NCBI GenBank assembly: GCA_018402665.1 | Contig: JAGYIN010000005.1 | Coordinates: 62,001 to 126,000, forward strand | Source of the DNA: Schleiferiaceae bacterium | GTDB lineage: Bacteria > Bacteroidota > Bacteroidia > Flavobacteriales > Schleiferiaceae | Reading direction: 5' to 3' | Length of the DNA stretch: 64,000 nt | Shown here: positions 1 through 18,711 of the stretch, one piece after another | Position numbering within the stretch: position 1 is the first letter of the stretch | Layout: every line of letters starts with the position of its first letter | The notes under the pieces: model-generated | Seen by the model: only the letters and a program-made list of their open reading frames with translations | What the model was told of the DNA's origin: nothing | The model's database searches: none | Program-made: the position numbers and the translations under genes

Positions 1-3000
1 ACATCTGCAATAAACCGTTGAAATGACCAATTGAACCAACAATACGAACTTCATCACCTTCTGTTACAACATAAGAAGCAACAGTAGCTACCGAAGAATA
101 GGTTCCAAGTCCTTCAGTTCCATCATGAACAGTAAACGATACTGCAGTGGCAGAACCTTGCATGTCCACACCGTGAACAACACCTACTACCTTACAATAA
201 ACGTTTAATGAATCCGGCACCCCATCAGCGTCCGTGTTATCCACTTGGTCGATAGTATAGGTTGGGATGAATGGGTAAACGAAGATATCCGTTAATTGGC
301 GTGGGAAAATCTGGTAGCCTTCATCGTAAGGTGAAGAGCTATCGTATTGTGACCCGATACCAGTAACGTCAAATGTACCCGCTGGGGCTGTTGAGCCGTC
401 GATATCCGTATCGCTATCAATACGCATGGTCAAAGTATCCGTACCGTTGGTGATGTCTACGTTTGCAGATCCAGAGGCTGGCCACTGGTTTGCATCTGCA
501 AGGGTAAATCCAACCAATTGGATCAATTCACTTTCAGTAGATTCATCCAATGCAGTCACAACAGCTGGTGCTGGCAATGTATTTCCGCTATTCGCTAGGT
601 AGATTGAATCTACAAACAGTTCAGTTAAACCATTGAATTGGTCCACCTCGCCGTGCAAGAATAAACTGTCTCCCATCATTGGAGTAGTGTAACCACTTTG
701 ATCTGCGAAGTTGTAAATATTGATTCCGTCCGTACCATCAGTTACATAGAAGCTGTAACCGCCGTTGCCATCAAAATCAATAGAAGTCACAATACCCTTG
801 ATCCATTTCATTGTACCTAATGAATCTGCGACACCGTTTGCATCAACTCCTGTAATAGTGTTGATCGCGACTACAGAATCAAAGGTTGGTGCGGGTGGCG
901 CACAGTTACTGTTGTGACCTCCTAAATAAGTATCTGTATTTGAAGGATAAACATCCCATTCGGTAGCGCCTATAGTCCAATCTTTTTGACCTGTACTAAC
1001 TGAAGCCTTGCGCACCAATGTATTATCTGCTGTCGCACCAGTACCAACAGTCCAAGATAATCCAGGATCAACTCCAACAACTCCGATAATATCAACTGAA
1101 TCTGTACCGTTCATTAAAACGATGGCGTCATCTCCGTTGAAATAGGTAATCGTTGAGGTAGTATCGGCTGAAGCTAAAATAGTAGATGCTGAACTAGGGT
1201 TCGCTATAACATAAGTACCATACGCAGGAATACTTAACGATGACGGGAATGTCATTGTACTTGGAGAAGTTCCCCCATTATTAAATCTTAGTATTTCGTA
1301 AGTACTCAAAGAAATGGCACTAGATGTTGGATTGTATAACTCTAATACCTTGTTATTACCTGAACCTTCGAGGTATTCGCTAAAGAACAATTCCGTACAT
1401 CCCGTTGTCGTCGTCGCACAAGACACACACTCTTCCCAACATACTACTGGAAGCGTGGTATCGGAAGCACCGATAGTAATGTAACGGTTGGTAAACGAAC
1501 CTGTAGTTAATGTACATGCGCTATCTAGTGTCGGATCAAGTGATTCCTGTCCTACCCAGTTGTCGTAGGTGAACTTGAATTCATAATTGCCTGCGGCAAG
1601 ATTAATATCTGCTTCGTACACGCCGTCACCATCAGGATCAGTCAATTGATTTGCATTACCGCTCCAGCTGTTCAGCGTTCCACTCACATAGACATTAGTA
1701 AATGACGCTGAAACATTGCTCATGTCCACACGGAAAGTCACATCAGGGTTCGTTGAAGTTACTGTACAAGAGGTATCTATTGAACAAGTACCGTAACAGA
1801 ACATCAAAGTAGTATCCTGCGTAAACGTTGGAAGAATACGATCGTTATAGTTTGCTGCATCGGCACAAGAAAGTCCTGCTAGGTTTTCTTTCGCGTTCCA
1901 GTCTGAAGCATTTGCAGGGCTATTGAGGAAGATGAAATTTCCTCCATTTGAACCGTTCAAAGTATCCGTACCTACATATATACCATCACCATCAGGATCT
2001 GCTAGTTGGACGGCATTAGCACCTCCAATAATGCCACCACCGAGGTAGATTCCGTTGGCTCCAACTGTAATATTCGCGGTATTCACCATGAAGGTCACTA
2101 CGAAATTTGTCTGAGCAGCACACGCCGTACATTCTTCCCAACATACTACTGGAAGCGTGGTATCGGCGTTGCTAATGGTAGAGTAACGGTTCGTAAACGT
2201 ACCTGTTGTTAGCGTACAAGTCGCATCAGCTACTGGGTCCAAAGTTTCTTGCCCCGTCCAGTTATCGTACGTGAATTTATATTCGTACGAACCTGGCATT
2301 AGTGATAAAGTACCTTCGTAGACACCGTCACCATCAGCATCAGTCAACTGGTTGGCATTACCACTCCAGTTGTTTACGGTCCCACTTACATATACGTTCG
2401 TGTATGAAGCAGTAACGTTGTTCATATCAACCTGGAAAGTAACATCAACAGGAGTTACGATACATGTACTGGCATGCGCACCGGCGTAAGACCATGTATT
2501 TTGAGCGTAGACCTCCCATTCTAAGGCACCCGTAGTCCAATCCGTAGAGCCACCAGAAACAGCGTGCTTACGAACCAGGGTATAGTTTGCAGTAGAACCT
2601 GTTCCTACCGTCCATGATGAACCGGGATCTACCCCAGGAACACCAATGACATCAATGGTATCAGTTCCGTTAGTCAAGATCAATGCATCGTCACCATTGA
2701 AGTGTGCAACAGAAGGGAATGCCATCGCTGTATCTGCCAATGCTTGCGTTGCGCTGTCCAATTGGTTCGTCGAAATCATGTAGACATCGCCTGAAGCAAT
2801 CGTTGCATTTGATGTGAATGAATTTGTAAATGAACCACCGTTACCGCTTAAATAAACCGTGTAACCACTCAAGGAAACCGCTGCGCTTGTTGGGTTGTAA
2901 ATTTCGAAGTATTTATTGTTCGAAGAGCCTTCTGAATATTCACTAAAGAATAGTTCCGTACATGGAGCTACGTAAGCACAAGAAAAACAAGATTCCCAAC

Positions 3001-3877
3001 ATACCTCTGGCAGTGTGGTATCCGCCGTTCCAATAGTCATGAAACGGTTTGTGAATCCTGCTGTCGTTAATGTACAGTTTGCATCAGCAACCGCATCCAA
3101 AGATTCTTGTCCCGTCCAGTTATCGTAGGTAAATTTGTATTCGTAAGACCCAGCAGATAAAGCAACCGTACCTTCATATATACCGTCACCGTCTGCATCA
3201 GTCAACTGATTCGCGTTTCCGCTCCAACTGTTTAGGGTTCCAGAGACATAAACGTTCGTGTAAGAGGCAGATACGTTATTCATGTCCACCTTGAAGGTCA
3301 CATCAAATGTGGAACAGTTGCTAATGTGCGAACCGAAGTATGAATAGGTATTCTGTGCGTAAACATCCCATTCTCCTGCACCGGTAGTCCAATCTGTTGA
3401 ACCACCCGTAACAGTCGTTTTACGAACGAGCGTATAATTCGCAGTAGAACCAGTACCCACAGTCCATGACGACCCTGGGTCAACTCCCGGAACGCCTATG
3501 ACATCAACGGTATCGGTTCCGCCGACAAGAATGAGAGCATCGTCACCATTAAAATGGGAAACCGATGGGAATCCTAAAATGGTGTCCGCTTCGTACTGCA
3601 TCAAGCTATCTGCTTGATTTGTACAAACTACAAAAACATCACCAGGTGCAATAGATGCTGAGCTGGTTAGTGTGTTGGTAAACGACCCGCCATTACCACT
3701 GAGGTAAATGGTGTAGCCGCTTAAAGAAACGGCTGAGCTTGTAGGGTTATAAATTTCGAAGCCCTTGTTGTTCGAAGAGCCTTCTATGTACTCGGAGAAG
3801 TACAATTCCGTACAGTTCTGACTGTATCCAGCAAAGGACAGCAAAACAGCAAAGAGCATAAGAGTAATCTTGCGCAT
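1..3877 (-). CDS. Giant exported lamin-tail / carbohydrate-binding-like repeat protein (C-terminus beyond window)
   Basis: An open frame runs from an ATG at 3877 to the left edge, giving 1292 codons with no stop in the stretches I translated. The N-terminus is a signal peptide (MRKITLMLFAVLLSFAGYSQ). Then come, by approximate residue: lamin-tail domain 1 (21-190), Ig-like carbohydrate-binding-like domain 1 (190-292), lamin-tail 2 (305-466), binding-like domains 2 (475-582), 3 (divergent, 590-692) and 4 (702-815), lamin-tail 3 (824-985), and two OB-fold-like modules (about 995-1092 and 1200-1292). Lamin-tail repeats carry the motif FSEYxEGSxNNK, as in ExeM-type secreted nucleases. The binding-like repeats carry VDMxN, SGTLNSW, DxDGDGxYE and KFTYDNW, and each ends in a CWExC cysteine cluster. 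It is the last visible gene of the run starting at 15817, 54 bases after the previous stop. A T9SS tail would be expected further left but is not visible. Function unknown; a surface adhesin or nucleic-acid/glycan-binding scaffold is inferred. Confidence 0.8.
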   Translation of the reverse strand, partial: MRKITLMLFAVLLSFAGYSQNCTELYFSEYIEGSSNNKGFEIYNPTSSAVSLSGYTIYLSGNGGSFTNTLTSSASIAPGDVFVVCTNQADSLMQYEADTILGFPSVSHFNGDDALILVGGTDTVDVIGVPGVDPGSSWTVGTGSTANYTLVRKTTVTGGSTDWTTGAGEWDVYAQNTYSYFGSHISNCSTFDVTFKVDMNNVSASYTNVYVSGTLNSWSGNANQLTDADGDGIYEGTVALSAGSYEYKFTYDNWTGQESLDAVADANCTLTTAGFTNRFMTIGTADTTLPEVCWESCFSCAYVAPCTELFFSEYSEGSSNNKYFEIYNPTSAAVSLSGYTVYLSGNGGSFTNSFTSNATIASGDVYMISTNQLDSATQALADTAMAFPSVAHFNGDDALILTNGTDTIDVIGVPGVDPGSSWTVGTGSTANYTLVRKHAVSGGSTDWTTGALEWEVYAQNTWSYAGAHASTCIVTPVDVTFQVDMNNVTASYTNVYVSGTVNNWSGNANQLTDADGDGVYEGTLSLMPGSYEYKFTYDNWTGQETLDPVADATCTLTTGTFTNRYSTISNADTTLPVVCWEECTACAAQTNFVVTFMVNTANITVGANGIYLGGGIIGGANAVQLADPDGDGIYVGTDTLNGSNGGNFIFLNSPANASDWNAKENLAGLSCADAANYNDRILPTFTQDTTLMFCYGTCSIDTSCTVTSTNPDVTFRVDMSNVSASFTNVYVSGTLNSWSGNANQLTDPDGDGVYEADINLAAGNYEFKFTYDNWVGQESLDPTLDSACTLTTGSFTNRYITIGASDTTLPVVCWEECVSCATTTTGCTELFFSEYLEGSGNNKVLELYNPTSSAISLSTYEILRFNNGGTSPSTMTFPSSLSIPAYGTYVIANPSSASTILASADTTSTITYFNGDDAIVLMNGTDSVDIIGVVGVDPGLSWTVGTGATADNTLVRKASVSTGQKDWTIGATEWDVYPSNTDTYLGGHNSNCAPPAPTFDSVVAINTITGVDANGVADSLGTMKWIKGIVTSIDFDGNGGYSFYVTDGTDGINIYNFADQSGYTTPMMGDSLFLHGEVDQFNGLTELFVDSIYLANSGNTLPAPAVVTALDESTESELIQLVGFTLADANQWPASGSANVDITNGTDTLTMRIDSDTDIDGSTAPAGTFDVTGIGSQYDSSSPYDEGYQIFPRQLTDIFVYPFIPTYTIDQVDNTDADGVPDSLNVYCKVVGVVHGVDMQGSATAVSFTVHDGTEGLGTYSSVATVASYVVTEGDEVRIVGSIGHFNGLLQM

Positions 3878-3901
3878 GAGAGTTGTTGTTTTATTTGGTG
3901 T

Positions 3902-3909
3902 TAAAGTTA
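3902..3909 (-). promoter_or_regulatory. Possible -7 element before the giant repeat gene
   Basis: The minus strand reads TAACTTTA, one mismatch from the Bacteroidota -7 element TAnnTTTG, 25 bases upstream of the ATG at 3877. It would let the last gene of the run be transcribed independently. No clear TTG -33 element is visible, so the call is weak. Confidence 0.25.
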
Positions 3910-3931
3910 TGGTTTTCACGTTATTAAATCG

Positions 3932-5116
3932 TTAATCGAAATCGAGTGTAAGTTTAAATCGTTGAACGGTTCCATTTTTGGAATCGGCTACATATAAAAT
4001 CTTGTCATAATACCCGATGGCACTCACGTTGCCAAATCCCCCTAAAGTCGCAAGCGCATTGAACTCAGCAGCTGATGCAGGTGGTGGTGGAACGCCTTCT
4101 AATCCGGAAGAAGTAAACTGATATACACTATCTACACCGGCATCTGCAACGAATAAAAACCGAGAACCGTCGCCAGCTAGACATAAATCAACAGGATCTA
4201 CGAATCGCTTTGGCGTTTGCAAATAGCGTTTTGCGGCAGGATCTAGTGTGCTGTAAAAGATAGGTTGGTAGAGCGCGCCGAAAGGTCCTTCTGTGAATTG
4301 GATGTGTTGCACTTGGATTTCCTGATCTTCATCCTGATTTAGCACCCAAAAGTCTGGGCTATTGCTCGCTGTGAGTTGCGGCGCTTGAGTAAAACCTTGA
4401 AGCGCTAATGGGTTTTTGAAGTAGTCGTTATAGGTAGCCCCTGATGCCGTAATAGGCAGTGCACTGATCCACTGGTGGTTTTTTGTGAATTTAAGTACAG
4501 CATTATCCGGTCCAAACCCTGCATTATTCGCACTTACTCCTGTTCTGCTTAAGTAATAGCTATTGTTTTCGGATTGAATATTGGAGCCAATAATCGCAAT
4601 ATCTGTAAACTTCACTTTTGCGTCCGAAGATGAGAAGCTGTTTTTAAAATAGAATGGGTGCACAATAACCGCTTCAGCTGTAGCCCCTTGCATGGACAGT
4701 ACATTGTCGCTGCCAATCATTTCTATTTCATAAAGCGCCGTTAGGCTGTAGTCAACTCCAGTGATGGTGGTATCGTAGGTTCCTATTGCGAGAAGATCAA
4801 AACTCCGAGTTTGTGTGACCTTACGAACGCCTGGTACATAAATGCTGCCCTGTAGATTTAAGGCGATATCGTACCGCAGTATGAGGTCTTGCGCACTATC
4901 TACAACATAAATAAATTCATCGTAACCTATGTAAACGTCCACTGGTGCAATGGCATCCTGAATGTTTGGTGCGATCGGTACGTAGCTGATTTCGCGTACG
5001 TCGTAGGTAGGAATTTCTATGAAATCTAAATTGGTCCGTTCTCCGAAGTAGTTGTCGCAACTGCTTAGTAGTACCCCTATACTTAGGATGAAAAATATGC
5101 CTAAGGTTCTTACCAT
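3932..5116 (-). CDS. Beta-propeller (NHL-like) lipoprotein
   Basis: 394 residues. The N-terminus is a lipoprotein signal (lipobox LLSSC, Cys20) followed by DNYFGE, so the protein should sit in the outer or inner membrane. The body contains repeated blade-like segments of the type IYVVDSAQDLILRYD (near residue 90), FLFVADAGVDSVYQF (near 325) and ILYVADSKNGTVQRF (C-terminus), typical of NHL/six-bladed propellers. No catalytic motif is recognised. Its start overlaps the end of the upstream PorV-like gene by 7 bases, so it is translationally coupled to it. A role as a periplasm-facing or surface partner of the barrel and TonB receptor in the same run is inferred from context only. Confidence 0.75.
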   Translation of the reverse strand: MVRTLGIFFILSIGVLLSSCDNYFGERTNLDFIEIPTYDVREISYVPIAPNIQDAIAPVDVYIGYDEFIYVVDSAQDLILRYDIALNLQGSIYVPGVRKVTQTRSFDLLAIGTYDTTITGVDYSLTALYEIEMIGSDNVLSMQGATAEAVIVHPFYFKNSFSSSDAKVKFTDIAIIGSNIQSENNSYYLSRTGVSANNAGFGPDNAVLKFTKNHQWISALPITASGATYNDYFKNPLALQGFTQAPQLTASNSPDFWVLNQDEDQEIQVQHIQFTEGPFGALYQPIFYSTLDPAAKRYLQTPKRFVDPVDLCLAGDGSRFLFVADAGVDSVYQFTSSGLEGVPPPPASAAEFNALATLGGFGNVSAIGYYDKILYVADSKNGTVQRFKLTLDFD

Positions 5117-6087
5117 GTGAGTGGTTTTATTTTAATTCCTATCGTGCCTTGGTACTGGTTGTACGGTGTAGGTTGTGCCCCTACACCCCATGCTACAGGC
5201 CATCCTTTTACAATGGTTTTCATTCCGAAACCCATCCAAGGAAGCGCTTTTTGACTTCCGATCTGGTAACCGACTGCTCCCCACAATTGTGAACGCCATT
5301 GGTATTTTAGCCCGCCTGCGTAGAATTCAGCATTGTCTGTTGGGTGGTTCAGTTGCAGGCTCGGGGTAAGGCTGTGGTCGCCCTTTTTCCAAGCCGTCCA
5401 TTGAATGCCCATAGAGAACATTTGAGGCGTAGCCGCTAAAGCCGATTCTTGACCTACAGGCAGGTTGCTCAACGGGGTGTTGGGGCCAAAATTGGTCAGG
5501 GCAGCTGCGAATTGAAGGTCTGCGATGTCCAATTTATATAAGAAGCCTAAGTCGAGGTACACGTTATGTGCTCTATATACACCTAGTTGTTCTAGGCCGT
5601 ATTTGAGTTGAACTCCAGCATGGAAGTATTCACTGAAGGCTTGGCTTACTCCTAATCCTACACAGGTAAGTGCAGCAGAGGTAGTGGCACCGGTGCCTTC
5701 CGGTTGCCAAACCGTTCTTTCGGGGATGGATCCTGTGCTAAGACTGTTGAGCGTGAGGGCAATATGCTGGCCGTTTTCTCGTGCTTTGGTGAGTGCTACA
5801 AAATCGTGATTGATGCCACCGCCTAAAGCTCTGTTCGCAGAAAAAACACCTTGCTGATTGCCACCGCTGATCAGCGCAGGGTTGATTAGGGCACCGAAGC
5901 TGTGATCGGTCATGGCTAAGCTTGCACCGCCAACTCCTGTGCTCGCCGGGTCGATGGGAAGTTTTAAGAAGGTGAAGGCGCTAAGTCCAGCACGCTCCTC
6001 GCCGTAGGTAGGTAATAATTGGGCCGTAGCACCAAAACTCAAGAGCAAACCAATGGCCAGCGGTATGTAAAAGTGACGTCTTACCAT
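5110..6087 (-). CDS. PorV/PorQ-family outer-membrane beta-barrel protein
   Basis: 325 residues with a signal peptide ending near GATAQ (residue 23). The start of the mature protein, with FLKLPIDPASTGVGGASLAM and then a short NPALIS motif, is characteristic of the FadL-like PorV/PorQ group. There PorV shuttles T9SS cargo to the surface attachment complex. The rest alternates short amphipathic strands, consistent with a barrel. It overlaps the TonB receptor gene upstream by 7 bases and the propeller lipoprotein downstream by 7 bases. Since several genes in the run encode T9SS-tailed proteins, a dedicated cargo-handling barrel is plausible. It is not the housekeeping porV as far as sequence alone can tell. 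Confidence 0.72.
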   Translation of the reverse strand: MVRRHFYIPLAIGLLLSFGATAQLLPTYGEERAGLSAFTFLKLPIDPASTGVGGASLAMTDHSFGALINPALISGGNQQGVFSANRALGGGINHDFVALTKARENGQHIALTLNSLSTGSIPERTVWQPEGTGATTSAALTCVGLGVSQAFSEYFHAGVQLKYGLEQLGVYRAHNVYLDLGFLYKLDIADLQFAAALTNFGPNTPLSNLPVGQESALAATPQMFSMGIQWTAWKKGDHSLTPSLQLNHPTDNAEFYAGGLKYQWRSQLWGAVGYQIGSQKALPWMGFGMKTIVKGWPVAWGVGAQPTPYNQYQGTIGIKIKPLTW

Positions 6088-8879
6088 TTGATTTGAATTC
6101 CTGCTAAAATTTGTGTCGGAGCGGAGTATCGTGCCGGATTTCTCGGATCAGTACCGGTCTCTTGTGGGCCATTAAATTCCGGACGTGGGTCGCGCCAAGT
6201 CAATGGAACATCGTCGCCATATTCATAGGCGCGGCCTGTAATAGGGTTGACCAATTGAGCATTTCTACGTCCAGTAATGTTCATCACCTCAAGGTTCAAT
6301 AGAATGCCGCCTGTGCCAAATTTAACGAGCGCGTAGGAGGCCTTTCCGTTTATTCCGAACCAGTAGGCACCACGTTCCCTCAGGTAATTTGCATTATCGA
6401 CGCGGTATTGCGGACGACCCAGGTCGTTGTATCCTTCTAAAATTTGAGGAGTGTAACGGTATCCAGAGGTGTATTGGGCATTGAGCGAAGCGCGGAACTT
6501 ACTGCTGTCGTTTTGAAAGCTGATTCCTGCGTTGAATTTCCACGGCCTATCCCAAGCTAAGAACTGCTCTTGAGTTAACGGTACTTCACCGGTTTGAGCG
6601 ATCTGAAGTGCACTTTCTCGCGCACTGTTTGACTTGCCTCGTGCTTGCTGGTACGAGCCGTTGAAGAATGAGGTGAAGGAGTTGTTTATCCGCGCATTCA
6701 ATTGGGTTTCTACACCAATTATTTTAGCATAGTCTTGATTGATATACATGGTTTTAGTCACCGGACGACCGGTGGCATCCGTCGTAATAACGCGACGCGA
6801 AACGATGTAATCGAAGCGGTTGTTATTGAACGCGTTGATGGTCCAGCCAATGCGACTCCCTACTAAAGTTTTGTACCCGACTTCATAGGAGATGTTCACC
6901 TCAGGATTGAGGTTCGGGTTACCTAGGGAAGATAAGAAACTGCGGTCCTGGTATTGCGGATCAAGACCCGCATACATGAAACGTGGGTGTGGCATCCGCA
7001 TGCTGTGCCCGTAATTAAAGTAGAGAACATTATTCTCAGTGACGGGGAAACTCACATTTAAACGTGGAAGTAGACGAACTTTCCAGCTCAAACCTCCGGC
7101 ATTGAACGAGTTTTCGTTGTATGCTTCGCGAATGGCGGGGAGGACGGGCGAGGAGGAATCGGCCACCGCGTTATCTGCAAATTTTCCGGGGGCCCAATAG
7201 TTGAATCGCATCCCTAAAGTGGCTTTTACGCCTTTGTATTCTATGCGGTCTTGCGCAAAGAGTCCTCCTTTTTGTGGACGTACTTTCCAGATATCGTTGC
7301 TGGAACCAATGGATACTGACGGGGTGGTAGTACTGTCGTTCAAAACGATGGGTGCACCTACCCAGGGACGGTACACGTCGACCCACTGGTATTCTGTCAA
7401 TGCGTGCTCTAGTCCACCACTAATGGTGTGAATGGAATTGGGCTGGAAGGTCAATTTCCCTTTGAATGTATTTTCTGCAGCGTAATGGTCGTGCCATATG
7501 GGCGTTATACCACCGTTGTTAACCAATCCGTTTCCTGGGATGAGGTAATAATTACCGTAGGGATCGTTTGGATTAAAGACAGTAAGGTCACCGGTGAAGA
7601 TGTAGGCTTCATCATAAATCTGATCGACCGTTTCTGCCCGGAATGGACGACCGTTGGCATCTGCTCTAAGATTGGTGAAGAGTCTACCCGCACTGACGGT
7701 TAGGCCAGTTTTTGCGTTGATGCGTTTGTTCCAGCCCAGTACGGTGAGGTTACTGTGGTGGGTGTAGGTCGTTGCGTTATCTAGATTGTTGCTTCTGTCG
7801 TATTGAAAACCGGGCGTAAGTAGGGCATCGAATCCAACGATTTGTAACGTTCGTGAATTTTGATTCACCTTGAGGCTGTGGCTGTTGGTTAACGTAAACT
7901 TTCCTACGGTTTTATTCGCATAACTCAGCTTCACGGTGTGGGTATAATCATTGCTTTGACGCGGTGCCCAAAACTCGGGTTGATCCGGGAATAAACTGGA
8001 TTTTAATTGAGTGGCAGTGGACCCAAAATAATGATCCGTCCATTGACCGCGCGCCGTAGTAAATAGGCGAAGTTTTTTCTTTGTGAAAGGTACGGGTGTG
8101 CTCAAGGTGACTTCCAATTCATCGGTATTGAAAGACGTCGCATCTGCGATTTGATCCGTTTGATAATTCAAACCCCAGCTGAATTTTTCACCGCCCTCTT
8201 TAATACGAGTATTAATAATACCGGCTGAACCACCACCGTATTCGGCGCTTGCACCACCGGTCATCAGATTAAGTGAGCCTACGGAAGAGGAACTGACACT
8301 CACTCCGCCTCCTGTTCCAGCGAGGGGATCTTGTGCTGAAATTCCGTCAATAAGATATTCTGTTTCGTAAACGCGCGCTCCACGAATTTGTAACCCGTCA
8401 GTAGTACGTTGTACACCGGCTTGCTGGGCCAAAACGTCTTCAACGCCTTTTGCAACCAACTTTCCAATTTCATTCCCTGTGAGTGTAATGGCAGAAGAAG
8501 CTTTTTCAAGATCCACCTGGTTCTTTCGTCCAACAACAGTTACAGCATTGAGCATTTCGCTCTGCTCCTGCATTTCTGCGGTAATAGTCGCCGGTTTTTT
8601 ACTCGTGATTTTAATATCATTGAAGAGGATAGGTTGGTAGCCTATGAACTGAAATTTGACGCTGTAGGTTCCGGGTTTAATGTCGCGTATTTCGAAGTTT
8701 CCATCAAAATCTGTGAGCGTTTGATAGAACGTACCCACAATACTTACTGCGGCATTAGGCAGCGGTTCTTTAGTACCTTTCTCGAGGGCTTGCCCACGCA
8801 AGACGCCTTTTTCCTGTGCTGCAACTAGGAATTGGCACAAGATGAAGGTTAGGGTAAATAGGGCTTTAGAATACCGCAT
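6081..8879 (-). CDS. TonB-dependent receptor with carboxypeptidase-regulatory-like N-domain
   Basis: 932 residues from the ATG at 8879; an ATG nine bases upstream (8888) adds three residues but gives a poorer signal peptide. After the signal peptide (ending VAAQ) lies a CarboxypepD-reg-like domain (about 25-110, with the DFDGNFEI and FIGYQ motifs), a plug domain (about 120-240, with QQAGVQRTTDGLQIRGAR and YLIDGI), and a long 22-strand-type barrel. It imports a ligand across the outer membrane using TonB energy. There is no SusD gene beside it, so it is not an ordinary glycan SusCD pair. Its partners are the Ig-like lipoprotein upstream (14-base overlap) and the PorV-like barrel downstream (7-base overlap). 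Substrate unknown; a nuclease product such as oligonucleotides or phosphate is an inference from the EEP gene in the run. Confidence 0.85.
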   Translation of the reverse strand: MRYSKALFTLTFILCQFLVAAQEKGVLRGQALEKGTKEPLPNAAVSIVGTFYQTLTDFDGNFEIRDIKPGTYSVKFQFIGYQPILFNDIKITSKKPATITAEMQEQSEMLNAVTVVGRKNQVDLEKASSAITLTGNEIGKLVAKGVEDVLAQQAGVQRTTDGLQIRGARVYETEYLIDGISAQDPLAGTGGGVSVSSSSVGSLNLMTGGASAEYGGGSAGIINTRIKEGGEKFSWGLNYQTDQIADATSFNTDELEVTLSTPVPFTKKKLRLFTTARGQWTDHYFGSTATQLKSSLFPDQPEFWAPRQSNDYTHTVKLSYANKTVGKFTLTNSHSLKVNQNSRTLQIVGFDALLTPGFQYDRSNNLDNATTYTHHSNLTVLGWNKRINAKTGLTVSAGRLFTNLRADANGRPFRAETVDQIYDEAYIFTGDLTVFNPNDPYGNYYLIPGNGLVNNGGITPIWHDHYAAENTFKGKLTFQPNSIHTISGGLEHALTEYQWVDVYRPWVGAPIVLNDSTTTPSVSIGSSNDIWKVRPQKGGLFAQDRIEYKGVKATLGMRFNYWAPGKFADNAVADSSSPVLPAIREAYNENSFNAGGLSWKVRLLPRLNVSFPVTENNVLYFNYGHSMRMPHPRFMYAGLDPQYQDRSFLSSLGNPNLNPEVNISYEVGYKTLVGSRIGWTINAFNNNRFDYIVSRRVITTDATGRPVTKTMYINQDYAKIIGVETQLNARINNSFTSFFNGSYQQARGKSNSARESALQIAQTGEVPLTQEQFLAWDRPWKFNAGISFQNDSSKFRASLNAQYTSGYRYTPQILEGYNDLGRPQYRVDNANYLRERGAYWFGINGKASYALVKFGTGGILLNLEVMNITGRRNAQLVNPITGRAYEYGDDVPLTWRDPRPEFNGPQETGTDPRNPARYSAPTQILAGIQIKW

Positions 8880-10254
8880 TGAATACATGGTCTAGGAGTA
8901 GGCCTCCGTGGTTGGTTGGCCGATTAAAAACGTGCAATGGCAAAGCCACAAACACCTGATTAATACTGCCGTTTTGTGTCCGGGTCGCGCCCATCGTGGT
9001 CGCACCGTTCCATCCTGCAATTTTTGTAATCTGCCCGTCATAGAGCGCCGTTGCATCTGCAGAGGGGACAATGGGTGTAATACCCAAGACAATATTTTGA
9101 GGCTGGAGCGATGGAAATCCGGGTTGTAGAGGAGCTAGGGTACTGTCGTTGGTCAAACGCGCTTGTCCACTACTAAAAACCAAACTCTCGACAGGAAAAA
9201 CATCTAAAAAGGCACCGCCGGCCATATTCGATGAAAACTGCGATGCGGTAAATAGTTTCCCGCCTTTTTGAAGGAATTTTTGTGTGCTTAATGCGAGAAT
9301 ATTGAGGAGGTAGTCGTCGCCTGATTTTGTTGGAAATACCGTGGCATCTGTGAAAAGTGCAATTTTAGAATAGCTCGACATGATGATTTCAAAGGTGGGG
9401 TCCCAATAAGCAGGAATTCCTGCACCGCTGACCGCATCCATTTGTAAGTAGTCATAAAGAACATTTGCACTGTCCATCCACGATTTGTACGTACTTCCGA
9501 TGTATTCCGGTTGTCCGTTTATAACGAGGGTAGCACTATTTGCAGCTTTCCAATAGAATCCTGCCGTAGTATCCACAGCGGAGTACACCCCTGCGCGGTC
9601 TCTAGCACGGAGGAAAATGAAATTTTCACCCTGCAAATCGGCACCAGGTATGGAATCAATAAAGCCCGCGTTTTTGTAATAAGCGACGTTGCCTTGAGGA
9701 TCCGTTGCAAAGGACAATAAAGAAACGGAGGAGCCTATTTCCACCCAATTTCCGGTATTCAATTTGAACTCTACACTTTCAATGGTTTCATCTCCATCGG
9801 CATCCGTTGCCCGCCAATCCACCGTAGCTACAATGAATGCACTATCTGATAACAGTCCGTCCGGATCAATGGCTACCTCAGGTGCAGCATTCTTTATAGG
9901 TACAATAAGCGTAGCAGGGGATGGGTCGATCAGTCCTTCGTTATCTTCTGCCGCCACCGTGAGTAGAATGTCAGTGGTATCTTGACCGGCTTCAATACTA
10001 AAGCTGAAGGTGCTGTCTGTACGTTCGGTAAAGCTTGTGCTTTCATCTACAGTGATGTGGTATCCTTTTATAAAGCCGTCTACATCCATACCGTACCAAT
10101 GCAGGGTAACGTTTGTTCCCAATCGCAGGTCACCTGAACGCACAATGCTGTCTACTTGAAGCAGTGTTTCAGGCGCCTTGTTTGCCACGGGATTGTCCGT
10201 CCCGCGGCAACTAAAGACAAGTACCGCTAACGCGAAGTACAGTAGGTATTTCAT
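8866..10254 (-). CDS. Ig-like-domain lipoprotein of unknown function
   Basis: 462 residues. The lipoprotein signal peptide has lipobox VFSC (Cys16). Residues about 28-215 form two fibronectin/Ig-like units with DGFIKGYHITVD, DTTDILLTVAAEDNEG and a second unit with TDADGDETIESVEFKLN. The C-terminal half (about 235-462) includes SATLVINGQPEYIGSTYKSW and a region rich in short hydrophobic strands that resembles GATase/ThuA-like folds only loosely, so I give it no name. Its stop overlaps the TonB receptor start. Three bases separate it from the OB-fold protein upstream. Position suggests a surface lipoprotein acting with the receptor, in place of a SusD. Confidence 0.65.
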   Translation of the reverse strand: MKYLLYFALAVLVFSCRGTDNPVANKAPETLLQVDSIVRSGDLRLGTNVTLHWYGMDVDGFIKGYHITVDESTSFTERTDSTFSFSIEAGQDTTDILLTVAAEDNEGLIDPSPATLIVPIKNAAPEVAIDPDGLLSDSAFIVATVDWRATDADGDETIESVEFKLNTGNWVEIGSSVSLLSFATDPQGNVAYYKNAGFIDSIPGADLQGENFIFLRARDRAGVYSAVDTTAGFYWKAANSATLVINGQPEYIGSTYKSWMDSANVLYDYLQMDAVSGAGIPAYWDPTFEIIMSSYSKIALFTDATVFPTKSGDDYLLNILALSTQKFLQKGGKLFTASQFSSNMAGGAFLDVFPVESLVFSSGQARLTNDSTLAPLQPGFPSLQPQNIVLGITPIVPSADATALYDGQITKIAGWNGATTMGATRTQNGSINQVFVALPLHVFNRPTNHGGLLLDHVFNAVF

Positions 10255-10257
10255 GAA

Positions 10258-12459
10258 TTAGTGTTGTACAGAAATTCGAGTAAAGAATTGGCCTGTTGAT
10301 CCTTCGAGACTTAGTAAGTACAAACCATTAGGTAATGCACTTACATCTACATTTGACTCTTGCGAGAAACGCTCACCTAACACTCGTTTTCCCGCGCTAT
10401 TGTAAATCGCTAATACACCATCCATAGGTGCTTTAACGGTCAACTGATTATTTACAGGGTTCGGGTAATAGGCAACATTCATTTGGCCCAATTCTACGAC
10501 GCTGATCGGTGAATTCGCCACAGTTATGCTGTCCAACGTTACGTTTGCACCGATAAAGTCATTGTTGTTACGCGGTACCAAACGGTAGTTGCTAAATCCA
10601 TAGAACAGGATGCCTTCGATGGCATCAAAAGTCATGGTATCACTAACAACGATTGGCGTTACATTCATCTCACCGTCTAAACTGCTGTATGACGTGTCAG
10701 TGACCAATTGTACATCTAATGAACTGTATGCAGTAGTGCTTTGACGTCCTGCAAGAACGCGACCACTGTGGCTTACTGCGGCAGTATTAGAGCTGCTTAC
10801 AGCAAAATCACCAAAACCTAAATTCGTTTGGCTAATGTGTAGTTTACCGTTCGGCTGCTCGTAGCGGATAAACATACTCTCGTACGGCTCCCAGCCAAAG
10901 TTTGCATAAGATGCAGAATCGGAAGGATCAAGCACGGTAGCGCTTACGTTACCTAAGTTGCCCGTTTTGTTTGCAGAAGTAACATTGAGGCGGGTCATTC
11001 CGTAGTATTCTTCTACCACGCCAGTTACTTCAACTTCTTCGTTGCGGTAAAATTGGTTCAGTCCAATACCCACACACCAAATCCCACTCCATGCAGAACC
11101 GGTTTCATCTTGAATGTAGAGGTACCCTAAATCGCCAATTTTAGTAGAAGCGGTTACTACCCCTTTGACGGTCACCTCTTGCGTTTCTAAAGGACTGTCT
11201 CCAAATGGATCCATGGTGTATTGAATGTCATAGACGAGCATTCCATTATCACGGACCGTGTAGAATTCAATATTGGGTGAGGCTTGCGTCGTCGGTTTTG
11301 TTGGATACCAACTTTCGTTCCCGTCGTTATCCGCAGCGTAGATGTAGTAACGTACGGTGCTGCCGTCGGTTTGTGCAGGAATTTCGTATTCGTATTCATC
11401 CGTTGTACCTGCACTCAAAGGGAAGGTATATTTAGGCATGTTCGCAATACTCACTGCATTATCTGCAGTCCAAGCGATACAAACGCTATCGACAGTACCG
11501 TCGTAATCTGTGATGTTACAGATAATTTCAACGTCTTGATTAGAAGTAGGTACGGATGGATCACGCTCGAAGTTTGCGATGTATGGCGGCGCATAGCCTA
11601 CATCATAATGTGTGCTGTCAAATGGATTGATTTCATAGCCACGTCCGTTATCACCGGTACATCCGTTGGCGTCGTGACGAACTACACCACTCAATGAGTT
11701 TAGGAATGTTCCAGGGACTGGAGGTACAAAAGAACCCTGCGACTGCGGCGAGTTCGGATTCACTGTACTGTACGACGAGAGTTTTTGAGCTAAGAATCGG
11801 TCACTCACGTTGATCACGTTTCCATTGGCATCGGCTACGTTGAAACTGACGCGGTTACCGGAAAACTGAATTACGGTAGTCACCGTGAGGTTCTCTAAGG
11901 TTACGAAAGAACCTTCGTATGGTTCACCGGTGGTGAGTTGGTTGACCTGTTGGTTGTCGTTAAGATCCCCTAAGGAAATCGTATCGCTGATCACAGGATC
12001 TGTGGTTGTTGAGATGATGCTGAAGCTGTTGGCATCGACCAGACTTAATTGGTTCGAACCGTTGTATTCGCCCACCAAACCTTTGACCTCCACGATGTCT
12101 CCAGGAAGAACTTGGGTAAAGGTGGAAGGCACTTGAAGCGATCCGTTTGAGGCTGAATACACGCCCATAACTTCAATTCCTGCCCAAGGCGAACTTTGTC
12201 CACCAACTGCAGTGTCTTGTATAAAAATAAAAGGGCGAAGTCCTCCGGTTACCGAACCGGAAGCTACTTCTGTTGCCCAACCGGGGGTAACCACAACTCC
12301 ACGGGTGATGATAGTCTGCCCGAGGTAGGCGGAGGTATCATTACAAGCAGCTAGATCTGAAGCCGAAACGTTATTAATTGCACTGATGCTGACGTAGGAT
12401 TGGCCAAAAGCAGTTGATGCGAATGCAGCAACTAAAAGGGTGAGTAGATGTTTTCTCAT
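10258..12459 (-). CDS. Secreted OB-fold protein with T9SS type A sorting domain
   Basis: 733 residues with a signal peptide ending TAFGQ. An OB-fold-like module (about 30-215) contains IITRGVVVTP, FIFIQDTA and GDIVEVKGLVGEYNG. An Ig-like domain follows (about 290-400, with IYAADNDGNESWYP). A second OB-fold-like module (about 420-520) contains VTVKGVVTAS and YIQDETGSAWSGIW. The last 75 residues are a type A T9SS tail (YPNPVNNQLTVKAP, YNSAGK, LPNGLYLLSL). Tandem modules of this kind accompany ExeM-type secreted nucleases and bind nucleic acid or shape the active site. The start codon shares one base with the stop of the upstream gene (TAATG), so translation is coupled. Probably cell-surface anchored. 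Confidence 0.75.
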   Translation of the reverse strand: MRKHLLTLLVAAFASTAFGQSYVSISAINNVSASDLAACNDTSAYLGQTIITRGVVVTPGWATEVASGSVTGGLRPFIFIQDTAVGGQSSPWAGIEVMGVYSASNGSLQVPSTFTQVLPGDIVEVKGLVGEYNGSNQLSLVDANSFSIISTTTDPVISDTISLGDLNDNQQVNQLTTGEPYEGSFVTLENLTVTTVIQFSGNRVSFNVADANGNVINVSDRFLAQKLSSYSTVNPNSPQSQGSFVPPVPGTFLNSLSGVVRHDANGCTGDNGRGYEINPFDSTHYDVGYAPPYIANFERDPSVPTSNQDVEIICNITDYDGTVDSVCIAWTADNAVSIANMPKYTFPLSAGTTDEYEYEIPAQTDGSTVRYYIYAADNDGNESWYPTKPTTQASPNIEFYTVRDNGMLVYDIQYTMDPFGDSPLETQEVTVKGVVTASTKIGDLGYLYIQDETGSAWSGIWCVGIGLNQFYRNEEVEVTGVVEEYYGMTRLNVTSANKTGNLGNVSATVLDPSDSASYANFGWEPYESMFIRYEQPNGKLHISQTNLGFGDFAVSSSNTAAVSHSGRVLAGRQSTTAYSSLDVQLVTDTSYSSLDGEMNVTPIVVSDTMTFDAIEGILFYGFSNYRLVPRNNNDFIGANVTLDSITVANSPISVVELGQMNVAYYPNPVNNQLTVKAPMDGVLAIYNSAGKRVLGERFSQESNVDVSALPNGLYLLSLEGSTGQFFTRISVQH

Positions 12460-14579
12460 TACTTAACTATTATGAAGGGTTCTGTTGTTCGTTTTCCAGT
12501 TTCTAAATCTTGTACATGTAATAGGTAGGTGCCTCGAGCGATGATTTGACTCTCTTTTGATAATAAATCCCAGGCATGCTCTCCGCCTGAGAAGGTGTTT
12601 TGATCTGTATTTTCTGATCCGAAGGTTCTAAACCAACGGGTATCGGAGCCATTGTAATTAGGGGTGTGTTCAAACGTATCGATCAAATCGCCTGCCGCTG
12701 TGGTGATTGTGATTTGACAATGTGCAGGAAGGTTGGCAAAAATGATTTTACGACTTTCTTCCTGGAAGTTACTCTGTCCCTCCCATCCTGCACTCAGGTA
12801 ATAGGGGTTGGGATAAGCATACGGCCGATCTTCGTCATCCGCAGCTTCTGTACCGGGGAAGACGCGTGTTACGTTTGCGAGGGCGGAGCTTTCAAGACTT
12901 TCAAGACCCGCATTTAGATCGCCTTTATCAAAAGCGGTAACGGCCATTGCGGTTTGCCATCCGTTGGGAAGGGGTGAAAGCCTGTAGGCATATTCATAAA
13001 CCACTGTATCGTTTTCGAACTGTTTAGGTGTAGAAAGCAATACCGGCGTAAATCCGTTGTTCATTCCATAATCGTTTCCGGTGCTGTCAAAAGAGGCAAC
13101 TAAGCTTAAATCTTCAGCAAGGTTTGGGGTACCGAACACATCAAAGCCCGTGCTAGTAGCGTAGATGTTGAACCCTTCGAAATCTTGTTTTTTGGAGATG
13201 GGGTCAACGCTTGTGACACTATTGCTGGCCCAGTAGATGGTTGCGCTATTTTCTCCGGCCTCCACTCTAGAATAGGGAATGGAGGGTGGTGTAGGAAGGA
13301 TGAAGCGTGTAATTTCCCCATTACCGTCTTTATCTTCTCCTGGATCTAAAATACCGTTGAAGTTGCCATCTTCTCCATTGTAAGTGGTTTGTGCCCAATT
13401 CGCTGCGCTGAGCAATCCACTGCGTTGAACTGCATTGTTTTGGGCATTTGGGTTTCCGTCTTCCATTTTCTTTGCCACCACAAAGGCAAAAGCGATGTTG
13501 ATGGTATCTCCTGGCGCGAAGGTGCTGAACGGACCGGCCGAAATGAGATCAGATCGGTTTCCACTCTTATTGAGCTCCTCTTGAAGATCTACGTCTAGCG
13601 TACTCACACAGCCTGCAGATGAAGGGTTGGTCCAGCAAGGATTGTGGTTAAAGCCGTCCACCATTTTTTGATAGCGCTGCTGGTCTGTGGTCGGGAAAAA
13701 GAAGGTGCTTTGCCCGCTGTTATTGAATATCCAGGCGTTGTAGTTTACTCTAAAACTAGAATCCGTTCTGGGGTGGCGGAAGCCCTGTTTGTCTTCTCCA
13801 CCTAAAAATACCTGGCCCACGTAGCTGTCGGTAAATCCTTCGTCACCAGTGGCATCGTAACAATAGGCGAGATTCAAACTGTCCACAAAGCCATTTCCGC
13901 CTTGAGAATAGAAGGTAGCGCCACCCGCTCCTGCAGGCGTAATGTTCACATTTCGTACCACTGTATTGTTCCACAAGCCTATGTAAAGATCTTCAAAGGT
14001 TTGGTCCCCCGTGTTGTAGAGGGTTAATGAACACATGGCCATGAAATCCGAAAAGCTGTAGTTCCAATTCAATAGGCGCATTTCTGCAACAATATCCATC
14101 GGGTTAATGTGATTGTTGATTGGGATAGAGGTTCCCGGCACCAATAAAGTAGAATCAGAAAAATGAGCAATAAAATCTTGATGGGAAATGGCCGCGGAAT
14201 TAAACTTCGGAGAAGTTCTTAAACTGCTCATTTCTTTGACGGGCATTCCTGGGACCGGATTGAATTCAAATCCTCCACGGCCAGGAGCATAGCCCTGTGG
14301 CGAATCGTATGCAGAAGTGCTGACACGAATAACACCATTAGCTGTGCCGCCAATCCAAATACCGCCTTCAAATAAGTGTTCAATTCCCGAACCAGCAGGG
14401 TACTCTAATGAAGGAGTGCCTGAACCGTCTTTATATCCTCTGAAGGCGTTCCCAAAAGTACCGGCATTCGTCGCGGACAGTCGAATGTTCGCCTGCGTTG
14501 TTTGGAACTCTTCAAAGTTTTGTGCTTGCGTAAAAAGGCTACACAAAAGGGCGAAAAGAAGGAGGATTCTGTGTTGCAT
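12459..14579 (-). CDS. Large exported protein of unknown function with T9SS-like C-terminus
   Basis: 706 residues; signal peptide MQHRILLLFALLCSLFTQAQ. I recognise no enzyme family. Visible features are an N-terminal region with GGIWIGGTANGVIRVST (about 72-88), an EF-hand/dockerin-like calcium loop at about 402-423 (DGNFNGILDPGEDKDGNG), a fibronectin-like segment after it with SATIYWAS, and a C-terminal sorting-like domain from about 590 (YAYPNPYYLSAG to GTYLLHVQD and EPFIIVK). The last is FlgD/T9SS-like and less canonical than those of its neighbours. Both its start and its stop use one-base TAATG junctions with the flanking genes. It is probably a structural or carrier protein on the surface. 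Confidence 0.6.
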   Translation of the reverse strand: MQHRILLLFALLCSLFTQAQNFEEFQTTQANIRLSATNAGTFGNAFRGYKDGSGTPSLEYPAGSGIEHLFEGGIWIGGTANGVIRVSTSAYDSPQGYAPGRGGFEFNPVPGMPVKEMSSLRTSPKFNSAAISHQDFIAHFSDSTLLVPGTSIPINNHINPMDIVAEMRLLNWNYSFSDFMAMCSLTLYNTGDQTFEDLYIGLWNNTVVRNVNITPAGAGGATFYSQGGNGFVDSLNLAYCYDATGDEGFTDSYVGQVFLGGEDKQGFRHPRTDSSFRVNYNAWIFNNSGQSTFFFPTTDQQRYQKMVDGFNHNPCWTNPSSAGCVSTLDVDLQEELNKSGNRSDLISAGPFSTFAPGDTINIAFAFVVAKKMEDGNPNAQNNAVQRSGLLSAANWAQTTYNGEDGNFNGILDPGEDKDGNGEITRFILPTPPSIPYSRVEAGENSATIYWASNSVTSVDPISKKQDFEGFNIYATSTGFDVFGTPNLAEDLSLVASFDSTGNDYGMNNGFTPVLLSTPKQFENDTVVYEYAYRLSPLPNGWQTAMAVTAFDKGDLNAGLESLESSALANVTRVFPGTEAADDEDRPYAYPNPYYLSAGWEGQSNFQEESRKIIFANLPAHCQITITTAAGDLIDTFEHTPNYNGSDTRWFRTFGSENTDQNTFSGGEHAWDLLSKESQIIARGTYLLHVQDLETGKRTTEPFIIVK

Positions 14580-15817
14580 TAAAAAATGATTTTACGCGTG
14601 GTGTGACCATTCATGGTCTCTAAACGAAGAAGGTACGTGCCCTTTGGTAGTACGGGAACGGTAAAGGTTGTTTCGGAGGTTTCGAACAATTCTTGCCCTG
14701 CCAACGTGCTGATGTGTAATCTACTCTGCTTCGGTAGTGTTAGTGAAGCACCTGTAGGCATGGGATTCGGTAGGGTCCAATTCCCTTCATGCGAGGCTAT
14801 GGCCAACTGTTGTCCTTCAATTTCGATATCTACAATCACAGGCAGGTGATCGCTCAATGCATATAAGGCGCTCAATACAGCACTGCTCACACTGTAATTA
14901 GTCCCAGAATTAATAGCATTGTTAAAATGATTTCCGTCATTTCCTACGGCAAAATAGCTGTTTGGGGCGTAGGTGATTTGTTCGTCGCCTTCAATAATGG
15001 CCTCCGAGCAGAGAATGTGGTCAAAGCGATCATCTAAACCGCCGCCTGAATGACAATTCCCTGAAGTACGAGTACTCTGGGTGTGTATGGAAGCAAAACT
15101 GCTGTTATTGTGCCAGTTTCCATTAGAGGTAATGGGATCTTCAAAGCGAAAGGTATTTCCTCCGATCAAGCTCTGAAAAGAAGCTTCGTTGCTGGAATAG
15201 GTATTGAGATCGCCCAATAAGAAAACGTTATCAAAGTTGCGCGCGTCGACCCAGTCGATGATTGCTGTAGCCGCTTTGTTGCGTTCTGCACCGTCAGAAG
15301 AGGTATTTCCTGCTTTAAAATGTGCGCCAATAACAACGAATGTTGCAGTATCACTATTGCCTTGCAACAACGCGTCTTTGTAGTAGAAGCGAACGATGTC
15401 GATGGCTCGAACTAAAGCATTGTTATCTGCATCTTTAGTGATTGCCCACTGGTTTGTGATGCCTAAAATATCACTGCGGTATGCAACGCCATTGACCAGC
15501 GAGGAAAAACCGTTGTGTACATGGTTCGCCATGGACCAGTGTGTAGTTGAACCGGTATTAAAAGCGTTGTTAAGAAGGTAGGTAAGATTGTTTGGGTTAC
15601 TGCCTATTTCGTTCATGACCACCACATGCGGTTCTATTTCGCTAAGGATGGTTTCTAAATGTCCTTCTTTGCTGCTGGAGTTGTTGTTTGAACCCGTACA
15701 ATAGGTAGTCGTATTGCGGTAATTCAAAAGATTGTAAGTCATGAGACGTACGGTACGGTCCTGTGCAACACTATTTAGCGTTAAAATGCTCAATACCAAA
15801 AGAAAGGATCGTCTCAC
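14579..15817 (-). CDS. Secreted endonuclease/exonuclease/phosphatase (EEP) family enzyme with T9SS tail
   Basis: 412 residues, signal peptide ending NSVAQ. The EEP fold is shown by TYNLLNYRN near residue 30, VVVMNEIGSN (metal-binding Glu, near 70), IGAHFKAG (catalytic His region), LLGDLNTYSSNE (the GDxN motif, near 200), DRFDHILCS and ALSDHLPVIVDI (the SDH motif, near 325). All catalytic motifs appear intact, so it should cleave phosphodiesters, most likely extracellular DNA or RNA. The last 65 residues are a T9SS tail (LPNPMPTGASLTL, STLAGQELF, LPKGTYLLRL). It is the first gene of the minus-strand run, preceded by a terminator and a candidate promoter. Confidence 0.85.
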   Translation of the reverse strand: MRRSFLLVLSILTLNSVAQDRTVRLMTYNLLNYRNTTTYCTGSNNNSSSKEGHLETILSEIEPHVVVMNEIGSNPNNLTYLLNNAFNTGSTTHWSMANHVHNGFSSLVNGVAYRSDILGITNQWAITKDADNNALVRAIDIVRFYYKDALLQGNSDTATFVVIGAHFKAGNTSSDGAERNKAATAIIDWVDARNFDNVFLLGDLNTYSSNEASFQSLIGGNTFRFEDPITSNGNWHNNSSFASIHTQSTRTSGNCHSGGGLDDRFDHILCSEAIIEGDEQITYAPNSYFAVGNDGNHFNNAINSGTNYSVSSAVLSALYALSDHLPVIVDIEIEGQQLAIASHEGNWTLPNPMPTGASLTLPKQSRLHISTLAGQELFETSETTFTVPVLPKGTYLLRLETMNGHTTRKIIF

Positions 15818-18701: not shown

Positions 18702-18711
18702 GGTTGTTCGG

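Follow-up and report, generated by a model that had tools for sequence, protein, structure and literature searches.

The closest described systems include a nuclease and a transformation locus. In Shewanella, removal of either the OB-like or the EEP domain abolishes the activity of the nuclease ExeM, and ExeM without its lamin tail retains some activity, so the lamin tail is not essential (PMC6085458, in the part of that paper available). Natural transformation of Riemerella anatipestifer requires two adjacent genes, RA0C_RS04915/RS04920, which encode a CarboxypepD_reg outer-membrane protein and a surface protein that carries both DUF5689 and DUF5017. In the available part of that source, the genetics identified both proteins without a mechanism (PMC8459023). 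As far as was found, the passage of DNA across the outer membrane of Bacteroidota is poorly understood. The window analyzed here is a stretch of 64,000 nucleotides from a Schleiferiaceae bacterium (contig JAGYIN010000005.1, positions 62,001 to 126,000; assembly GCA_018402665.1, 1.95 Mb in size). It contains seven minus-strand genes of a conserved module, EEP, FN706, OB, LipIg, TonB, PorV, and Prop, which are followed by a gene for a lamin-tail giant (Table 1). The six genes from FN706 to Prop form the core, and a predicted nuclease, EEP, adjoins it. The closest named relative, among the best 80 of at least 549 named loci, is the metagenome-assembled genome (MAG) Sum29DL08_bin30 (FN706 at 95%), and the next are MAGs titled Cryomorphaceae or Schleiferiaceae.

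Conservation of the six-gene core

The six-gene run is a genuine conserved module and is widespread in the phylum. The order FN706-OB-LipIg-TonB-PorV-Prop was found in 17 of 17 testable loci of the window's own family, in 13 of 47 class loci, and in 19 of 20 outside-class loci. The place after PorV is taken by a relative of Prop in 16 of 17, 13 of 14, and 19 of 19 of the loci that could be tested in these three sets. The first-pass annotation had proposed comparing gene order across Bacteroidota, and the comparison bears it out in that OB, the receptor, and the PorV-like gene are co-conserved. Its idea of a surface module also stands, with ExeM-type OB folds, a predicted nuclease, and a TonB-dependent receptor kept together. 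The full order is present in Ignavibacteria as well, for example in the named loci L138, L140, L143, L156, L158, and L162. Separately, the entire six-gene order was seen in a MAG titled Candidatus Fermentibacteria (L157), by title outside Bacteroidota. Horizontal transfer could explain this, as could a misnamed or contaminated MAG.

These counts come from sequence fetched around FN706, up to 20 kb per locus. In the class sample, FN706 was counted at 130 bits or more in 62 of 295 genomes; this cut was chosen after the list had been seen and dropped 47 of the 109 genomes listed at E 1e-3 (the best of the dropped at 36.5 bits). Fragments account for two of the 62 positive genomes (G314 and G316). 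In the order sample, FN706 was matched in 26 of 148; 19 of these matches were strong, all from the window's own family (19 of its 20 genomes), and seven scored 28.2 bits or less. The phylum sample had 91 positives of 296 at E 1e-30, some of them fragments (G505 and G545 are examples), and the 20 outside-class loci were selected from 90 positives for family spread. "Outside the class" means the kinship class "same phylum", and assignments to Ignavibacteria come from record titles. Other thresholds were 1e-15 for EEP, 1e-10 for LipIg, and 1e-20 for DUF5689, the last set after a 15-genome trial.

The operon is broken up in many class families, and FN706 adjoins OB in 38 of 56 class loci. FN706 and LipIg occur together in 60 of the 295 genomes, alone in two each, and are both missing from 231, a statistic that ignores phylogeny. 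This co-occurrence holds where the genes are unlinked. For example, in one family in which the two are unlinked (f53), genomes G184 and G287 are without both. Twenty genomes were picked because LipIg lay away from FN706, and two of their loci (L181 and L187) keep LipIg beside a TonB match. Most FN706-positive genomes have one strong match.

The receptor is 33-59% identical to 24 relatives, and no receptor orthologue in one full-length piece was found in 15 FN706-free relatives. In one of these, G116, two pieces of 163 and 98 bits lie within one frame. The other 14 gave N-terminal matches only, up to 106 bits, or none, and in 14 genomes of families f3 and f6 nothing matched the receptor profile past its first 291 positions (best 106 bits). 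Of the 20 own-family genomes, only G116 (4.0 Mb, one contig) lacks FN706. DUF5689 was not matched in it either, and its best receptor match is this 1,242-aa frame.

The giant had been counted as a part of the machine and was rejected as a core member, with a tblastn match in just 4 of the 19 own-family loci fetched (L010, L016, L025, and L026). Pfam found no nuclease domain in the part of the giant that lies within the window, which is the part scanned. In one locus (L229, 1800-4568), a patatin-POTRA-Omp85 protein comes after Prop, with 4 bases between them.

ExeM-type parts and an exchangeable nuclease slot

The ExeM/NucH profile of NCBIfam, NF033681, is divided between two proteins of the run, as the first-pass annotation had suggested for ExeM. 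Profile positions 1-246 match OB at 63.8 bits and positions 232-545 match EEP at 36.1 bits, with a cut-off of 300. An ExeM/NucH nuclease would hold both domains in one polypeptide that exceeds this cut-off; here, they are in separate proteins that both fall far below it. A second OB module was also seen in the OB protein, which likewise agrees with the annotation, as does its type IX secretion system (T9SS) tail. The type A sorting domain TIGR04183 (cut-off 23) is matched by OB at 39.4 bits and by EEP at 28.9 bits. Among OB orthologues, 53 of 54 match ExeM/NucH and 53 of 54 match the T9SS tail. Pfam gave no PF18942 (DUF5689) match for OB.

EEP proteins of the DNase-I-like type share a catalytic motif of Asn, Glu, His, Asp-Asn, and Asp-His residues. 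Residues N29, E70, H166, D203, N205, D323, and H324 of EEP are invariant across 33 rows, and because these are the motif residues, EEP has the catalytic residues of a DNase-I-like nuclease. Its description as a nuclease with a T9SS tail is supported by these residues and by TIGR04183, but the Pfam matches are below their cut-offs, slightly so for Exo_endo_phos (22.2 bits, cut-off 24.5) and more so for the tail (17.6 bits, cut-off 27). Of 33 EEP orthologues, 14 match ExeM/NucH, 16 match MnuA, and 24 match the T9SS tail.

The annotation had expected EEP to lie next to the other genes in relatives, and this was true in part. Of 19 own-family loci, 17 have EEP just upstream of FN706 (17 of 18 genomes when the one split over two contigs is counted once), but only 9 of 58 class loci do. 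Among 20 outside-class loci, a slot holds a nuclease in 9. In that set, as in Ignavibacteria, this slot lies downstream of Prop. It can contain an EEP protein with a T9SS tail (L146, L161, and L237; L238 and L244 by profile), a member of a distinct EEP subfamily (L228, L235, and L241), a PLD-type protein (PF13091; L245 and eight named-set genomes), or a nucleotide-phosphodiesterase type (NPP) protein of PF01663 (L231 and L232, and L233 after one extra gene). For the named-set PLD proteins, the end of Prop is on the same stretch in L189, L190, L192, L194, L196, and L197, and the placement is from coordinates in L140 and L162. Within the PLD type, some slot proteins show a DUF5689 or OB-fold profile match as well.

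Slot genes are nucleases in 17 of 57, 9 of 47, and 10 of 46 cases in the own-family, class, and outside-class sets, and non-slot genes in 0 of 79, 0 of 565, and 2 of 109; these last are in L233 and L240. Pfam was run on some slot-side genes rather than on all locus genes, and it confirms most of the slot genes scanned; the truncated ends in L140 and L162 had no match. In L240, a frame at 17362-19998 matches the far-EEP profile at 280 bits and has a T9SS-like tail; it is about 1.5 kb past Prop and on the opposite strand.

In a tree of 53 EEP proteins, members from the 5' slot, stand-alone members, and members from DUF5689 loci are intermixed. Well-supported branches force at least two changes of the 5'-slot label, and the far subfamily stands apart (99/97). 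Therefore, the nuclease has moved or been exchanged more than once. Its uneven placement beside FN706 makes EEP an exchangeable part and not a core one. The EEP family is present in 39 of 62 FN706 genomes, compared with 60 of 233 others. When 19 loci with EEP away from FN706 were examined (16 of them from FN706 genomes), one weak PorV-family match (57 bits, L220) and no Prop were found.

DUF5689 loci and possible roles of the run

A strong DUF5689 match is present in 62 of the 295 class genomes and FN706 in 62, and the overlap is 0 where 13 would be expected (hypergeometric 5.8e-8); 171 genomes have neither. The exclusion was counted per genome and per family. In one family (f48), different genera carry different systems, either FN706 or DUF5689. 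Seven genomes have EEP and DUF5689 near each other on a single contig, and in all seven of these FN706-negative loci (L226 and L247-L252) a barrel, a DUF5689 lipoprotein, and an OB-type protein are in one run with EEP beside it. The DUF5689 lipoprotein is in two copies in L247 and L248, and the OB match in L250 is 88 bits. A second EEP protein adjoins the barrel in the seven loci, assigned to PF19580 in the two scanned and by likeness in the others. This second family is beside the barrel, in divergent orientation, in 7 of 7 of these loci (for example, L226 1417-2457) and in 4 of 5 further loci (L254-L257). The five, L253-L257, are from f3 genomes, taken as Flavobacteriaceae, and have the DUF5689 protein directly after the barrel.

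By hhalign, the OB protein of the seven loci aligns with the C-half of the run's OB profile (columns 402-730 of 732; probability 100, E 5.6e-51), and their DUF5689 lipoprotein aligns with the N-half (columns 12-271; probability 97.7, E 2.4e-12). The window's run has no DUF5689 surface protein beside its receptor; the giant's DUF5689 match is 36.8 bits.

From sequence, the parts exist and belong together, and from them we infer binding, cutting, and import. Nucleic acid is quite probably the substrate, and the run may well be an outer-membrane machine for nucleic-acid capture and import. It would be the counterpart of the Riemerella-type locus of barrel and DUF5689 protein, because the two were never found in one sampled genome and the run's OB is related to the surface proteins of that locus. 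The OB protein would bind extracellular DNA or RNA, and FN706 with OB would hold it at the surface, where the nuclease, EEP or its exchange partner, would cut it. FN706, LipIg, and Prop could hold the nucleic acid over the receptor, and the PorV-like barrel could anchor FN706 or OB in the way that PorV and PorQ anchor T9SS cargo. The TonB receptor would then pass nucleic acid to the periplasm using TonB energy, after which DNA could go to ComEC for transformation or serve as food. The genetics of Riemerella and the strong conservation of one main copy would favor transformation; the secreted nucleases and phosphodiesterases would favor feeding.

Tentatively, many Bacteroidota might use the six-gene core to translocate DNA across the outer membrane in natural competence. 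It is conceivable that a TonB-driven, T9SS-assembled importer replaces the type IV pilus and secretin of other Gram-negative bacteria. The exchangeable surface nuclease might possibly make the entering ends, with the Riemerella barrel and DUF5689 pair as an alternative form. ComEC was tried as a competence test. It is present in 14 of 14 genomes tested and also in 10 of 14 controls, so it is near-universal and uninformative.

Several results weigh against this reading of nucleic-acid import. The near-universal ComEC says little in its favor. Among class loci, 49 of 58 showed no nuclease in the slot, as did 11 of 20 outside-class loci; since slot genes served as seeds for the PLD, NPP, and far-EEP profiles, the slot counts lean that way. 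The EEP family was not matched in 23 of 62 FN706 genomes (up to five candidates were scored per genome), and it is also found in 18 of 62 DUF5689 genomes and 42 of 171 genomes with neither. EEP and DUF5689 are close together in only 7 of the 18 genomes that have both. Counted by family, the exclusion of FN706 and DUF5689 is weaker (17 and 17 of about 73 families, with f48 shared; P 0.046). L253-L257, which are nearest to the Riemerella pair, are without an OB protein or a window-type EEP within 10 kb. The run's receptor and the Riemerella-type barrel gave a weak hhalign match (probability 18.5). In structure comparison, which reports fold only, the nearest folds to FN706 are sandwich domains of carbohydrate enzymes.

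None of FN706, LipIg, and Prop could be assigned to a Pfam family at E 0.05; LipIg has no NCBIfam match better than E 0.024, and Prop, labeled "propeller" by the first-pass annotation, matched nothing in Pfam or NCBIfam. The predicted model of FN706 (pLDDT 87.6) has an N-terminal beta-sandwich resembling GH94/GH116 enzymes, followed by further beta domains, and its secondary structure includes no helical catalytic barrel. LipIg (pLDDT 90.1) is modeled with two Ig/PKD-like domains and a GATase1-like domain. It is probably not a glutaminase, because it has no invariant Cys outside the lipobox, and this candidate was set aside as improbable. In the OB family, the OB region can be aligned with the N-terminus of the solved EEP proteins 9sf8/9sf9, and the Ig-like region with the N-terminus of peptidylarginine deiminase chains. 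Foldseek and VIA-align rows show fold likeness, not function, among the families listed. The likeness of the FN706 and LipIg models to carbohydrate enzymes would weigh somewhat against a reading of nucleic acid only.

The strongest alternative, itself a special case of the import reading, is a purely nutritional role, in which DNA or RNA is degraded and oligonucleotides or nucleosides are imported for carbon, nitrogen, and phosphate, with no part in transformation. It is a serious possibility, if short of probable. Secreted nucleases, and in three loci an NPP-type enzyme, are near the core; however, nutrient loci are typically patchy, and here there is mostly one strong FN706 match per positive genome together with strong conservation. 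Bacteroidota have been named as sediment DNA degraders, in the available part of PMC8289736, whereas the related DUF5689 pair has a transformation phenotype (PMC8459023).

A phosphodiester polymer or lipid that is not a nucleic acid, such as a teichoic-acid-like glycan or a phospholipid head group, is a rather unlikely substrate; the slot enzymes would then act as other phosphodiesterases. Every slot enzyme family also includes non-nuclease members, and the FN706 and LipIg folds are seen in carbohydrate enzymes. However, the OB modules match ExeM/NucH in 53 of 54 orthologues, some PLD-type slot proteins match DUF5689 or OB-fold profiles, and the related locus type serves DNA uptake (PMC8459023).

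The run could also be a module for T9SS surface assembly or anchoring, similar to PorQ/PorZ, with the nuclease as one passenger. The PorV/PorQ-family barrel would suit such a role, and FN706 relatives weakly match the PorZ tail in 24 of 65 cases (and TIGR04183 in 8 of 65) in NCBIfam. This is nevertheless improbable: SprA is in 286 of 295 class genomes compared with 62 for FN706, so most T9SS genomes are without FN706, and a TonB receptor and an OB protein would be unexpected for anchoring. The near-universal SprA also made co-occurrence uninformative on T9SS dependence. Finally, chance clustering of unrelated surface genes, for which the dispersal in many class families could be cited (38 of 56 loci have FN706 next to OB, and 13 of 47 keep the full order), is barely credible given the identical order in 19 of 20 outside-class loci and the co-occurrence of FN706 and LipIg even when unlinked.

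Should the import machine be the counterpart of the Riemerella-type locus elsewhere in the phylum, the question of DNA passage becomes testable, since the seven genes form a defined operon that is present in named isolates. Two environmental isolates, Salibacter halophilus KCTC 52047 (L120) and Thermaurantimonas aggregans (L091), have all seven genes.

Gene layout and comparison with known systems

Table 1. Positions and assignments of the genes of the run within the window
Gene	Product	Position	Strand	Basis
EEP	Predicted DNase-I-like secreted nuclease, 412 aa, T9SS tail	14579..15817	-	Pfam, NCBIfam, catalytic residues
FN706	706 aa, without Pfam family	12459..14579	-	Most conserved member; between EEP and OB
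OB	733-aa T9SS cargo, two ExeM-type OB modules flanking an Ig-like domain	10258..12459	-	NF033681, Por_Secre_tail
LipIg	Lipoprotein, two Ig/PKD-like domains and a GATase1-like domain	8866..10254	-	Predicted structure
TonB	TonB-dependent receptor, 935 aa: CarbopepD_reg_2, plug, barrel	6081..8888	-	Pfam
PorV	PorV/PorQ-family outer-membrane barrel, 325 aa	5110..6087	-	NF033709
Prop	394-aa lipoprotein, final core gene	3932..5116	-	Place after PorV kept in relatives
Giant	Lamin-tail/OB/CBM-like giant, partial in window; outside conserved core	2..3919	-	LTD, AMPK1_CBM, DUF5689 36.8 bits

All of the genes named in the first-pass annotation are present, on the minus strand. EEP, OB, LipIg, TonB, PorV, and the Prop lipoprotein on its list are retained, but it omitted FN706 (12459-14579) and counted in the giant. 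The tight junctions that it described hold from EEP to Prop, where the open reading frame (ORF) coordinates give overlaps of 1, 1, 23, 7, and 7 bases and one 3-base gap, but Prop and the giant are separated by 12 bases from a GTG start or about 54 from the likelier ATG. The giant extends past the window, and its full ORF on the contig is 1,676 aa counted from GTG. In its window part, Pfam finds LTD in three stretches, AMPK1_CBM, and the DUF5689 match.

The run adjoins a YqeY gene (Pfam) and genes that read as ftsZ and ftsA by inspection. At 16347-24367 there is an FtsZ-like ORF of 784 aa with an acidic C-terminal extension, followed by ORFs reading as ftsA, ftsQ, murC, murG, and ftsW, also by inspection.

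The receptor had been described as a TonB receptor without SusD, and this is what was found: the TonB barrel and plug are matched, and no SusD family is among the Pfam and NCBIfam matches of the run's proteins. The receptor scores 59.7 bits against the SusC profile TIGR04056, with a cut-off of 368, and membership in a SusC/SusD locus was rejected on these two results. The PorV/PorQ-like barrel is likewise as described, with 91.5 bits against NF033709 (PorV_fam, cut-off 90); it reaches 58.2 of 220 bits against the PorQ equivalog NF033711. A possible likeness to the BAM complex of Bacteroidota was given up, since BamG is a FadL-family barrel according to the available part of PMC12611786; the genes themselves were not compared.

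No description of the gene set was found among the papers that the literature searches listed, which did not include preprints. Its parts are largely from known families, and its layout resembles TonB-dependent utilization loci. Compared with Shewanella ExeM, which is a single polypeptide with an LTD, the related OB-like and EEP domains of the run are in two proteins, with FN706 between them, and are joined to a TonB receptor, a barrel, and lipoproteins (PMC6085458, in the part available).

The Riemerella pair also places an outer-membrane CarboxypepD_reg protein beside a surface DUF5689 protein, and DUF5689 proteins are related to the N-half of the run's OB. The seven loci similar in type to this pair carry relatives of OB and EEP as well. 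In contrast to the run, no FN706, LipIg, PorV-like, or Prop match was found in the 12 loci of this type that were read, and the type was never in one genome with FN706 among the 295. The likeness follows the domain description in the available part of PMC8459023 and not the Riemerella sequences.

Attachment complexes of the T9SS comprise PorV/PorU and PorQ/PorZ. A PorV/PorQ-family barrel and T9SS-tailed proteins are common to these and the run, but the run's barrel is below the PorQ equivalog cut-off and FN706 matches PorZ at the tail only. With SusC/SusD loci, the run shares a TonB-dependent receptor with CarbopepD_reg_2, surface lipoproteins, and a secreted hydrolase in one run of genes. It differs in that it has no SusD match, its receptor is below the SusC cut-off, and a predicted nuclease replaces the glycosidase. 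If the import reading is true, the run would be a nucleic-acid analogue of polysaccharide utilization loci and would bear on the turnover of extracellular DNA and on environmental gene transfer.

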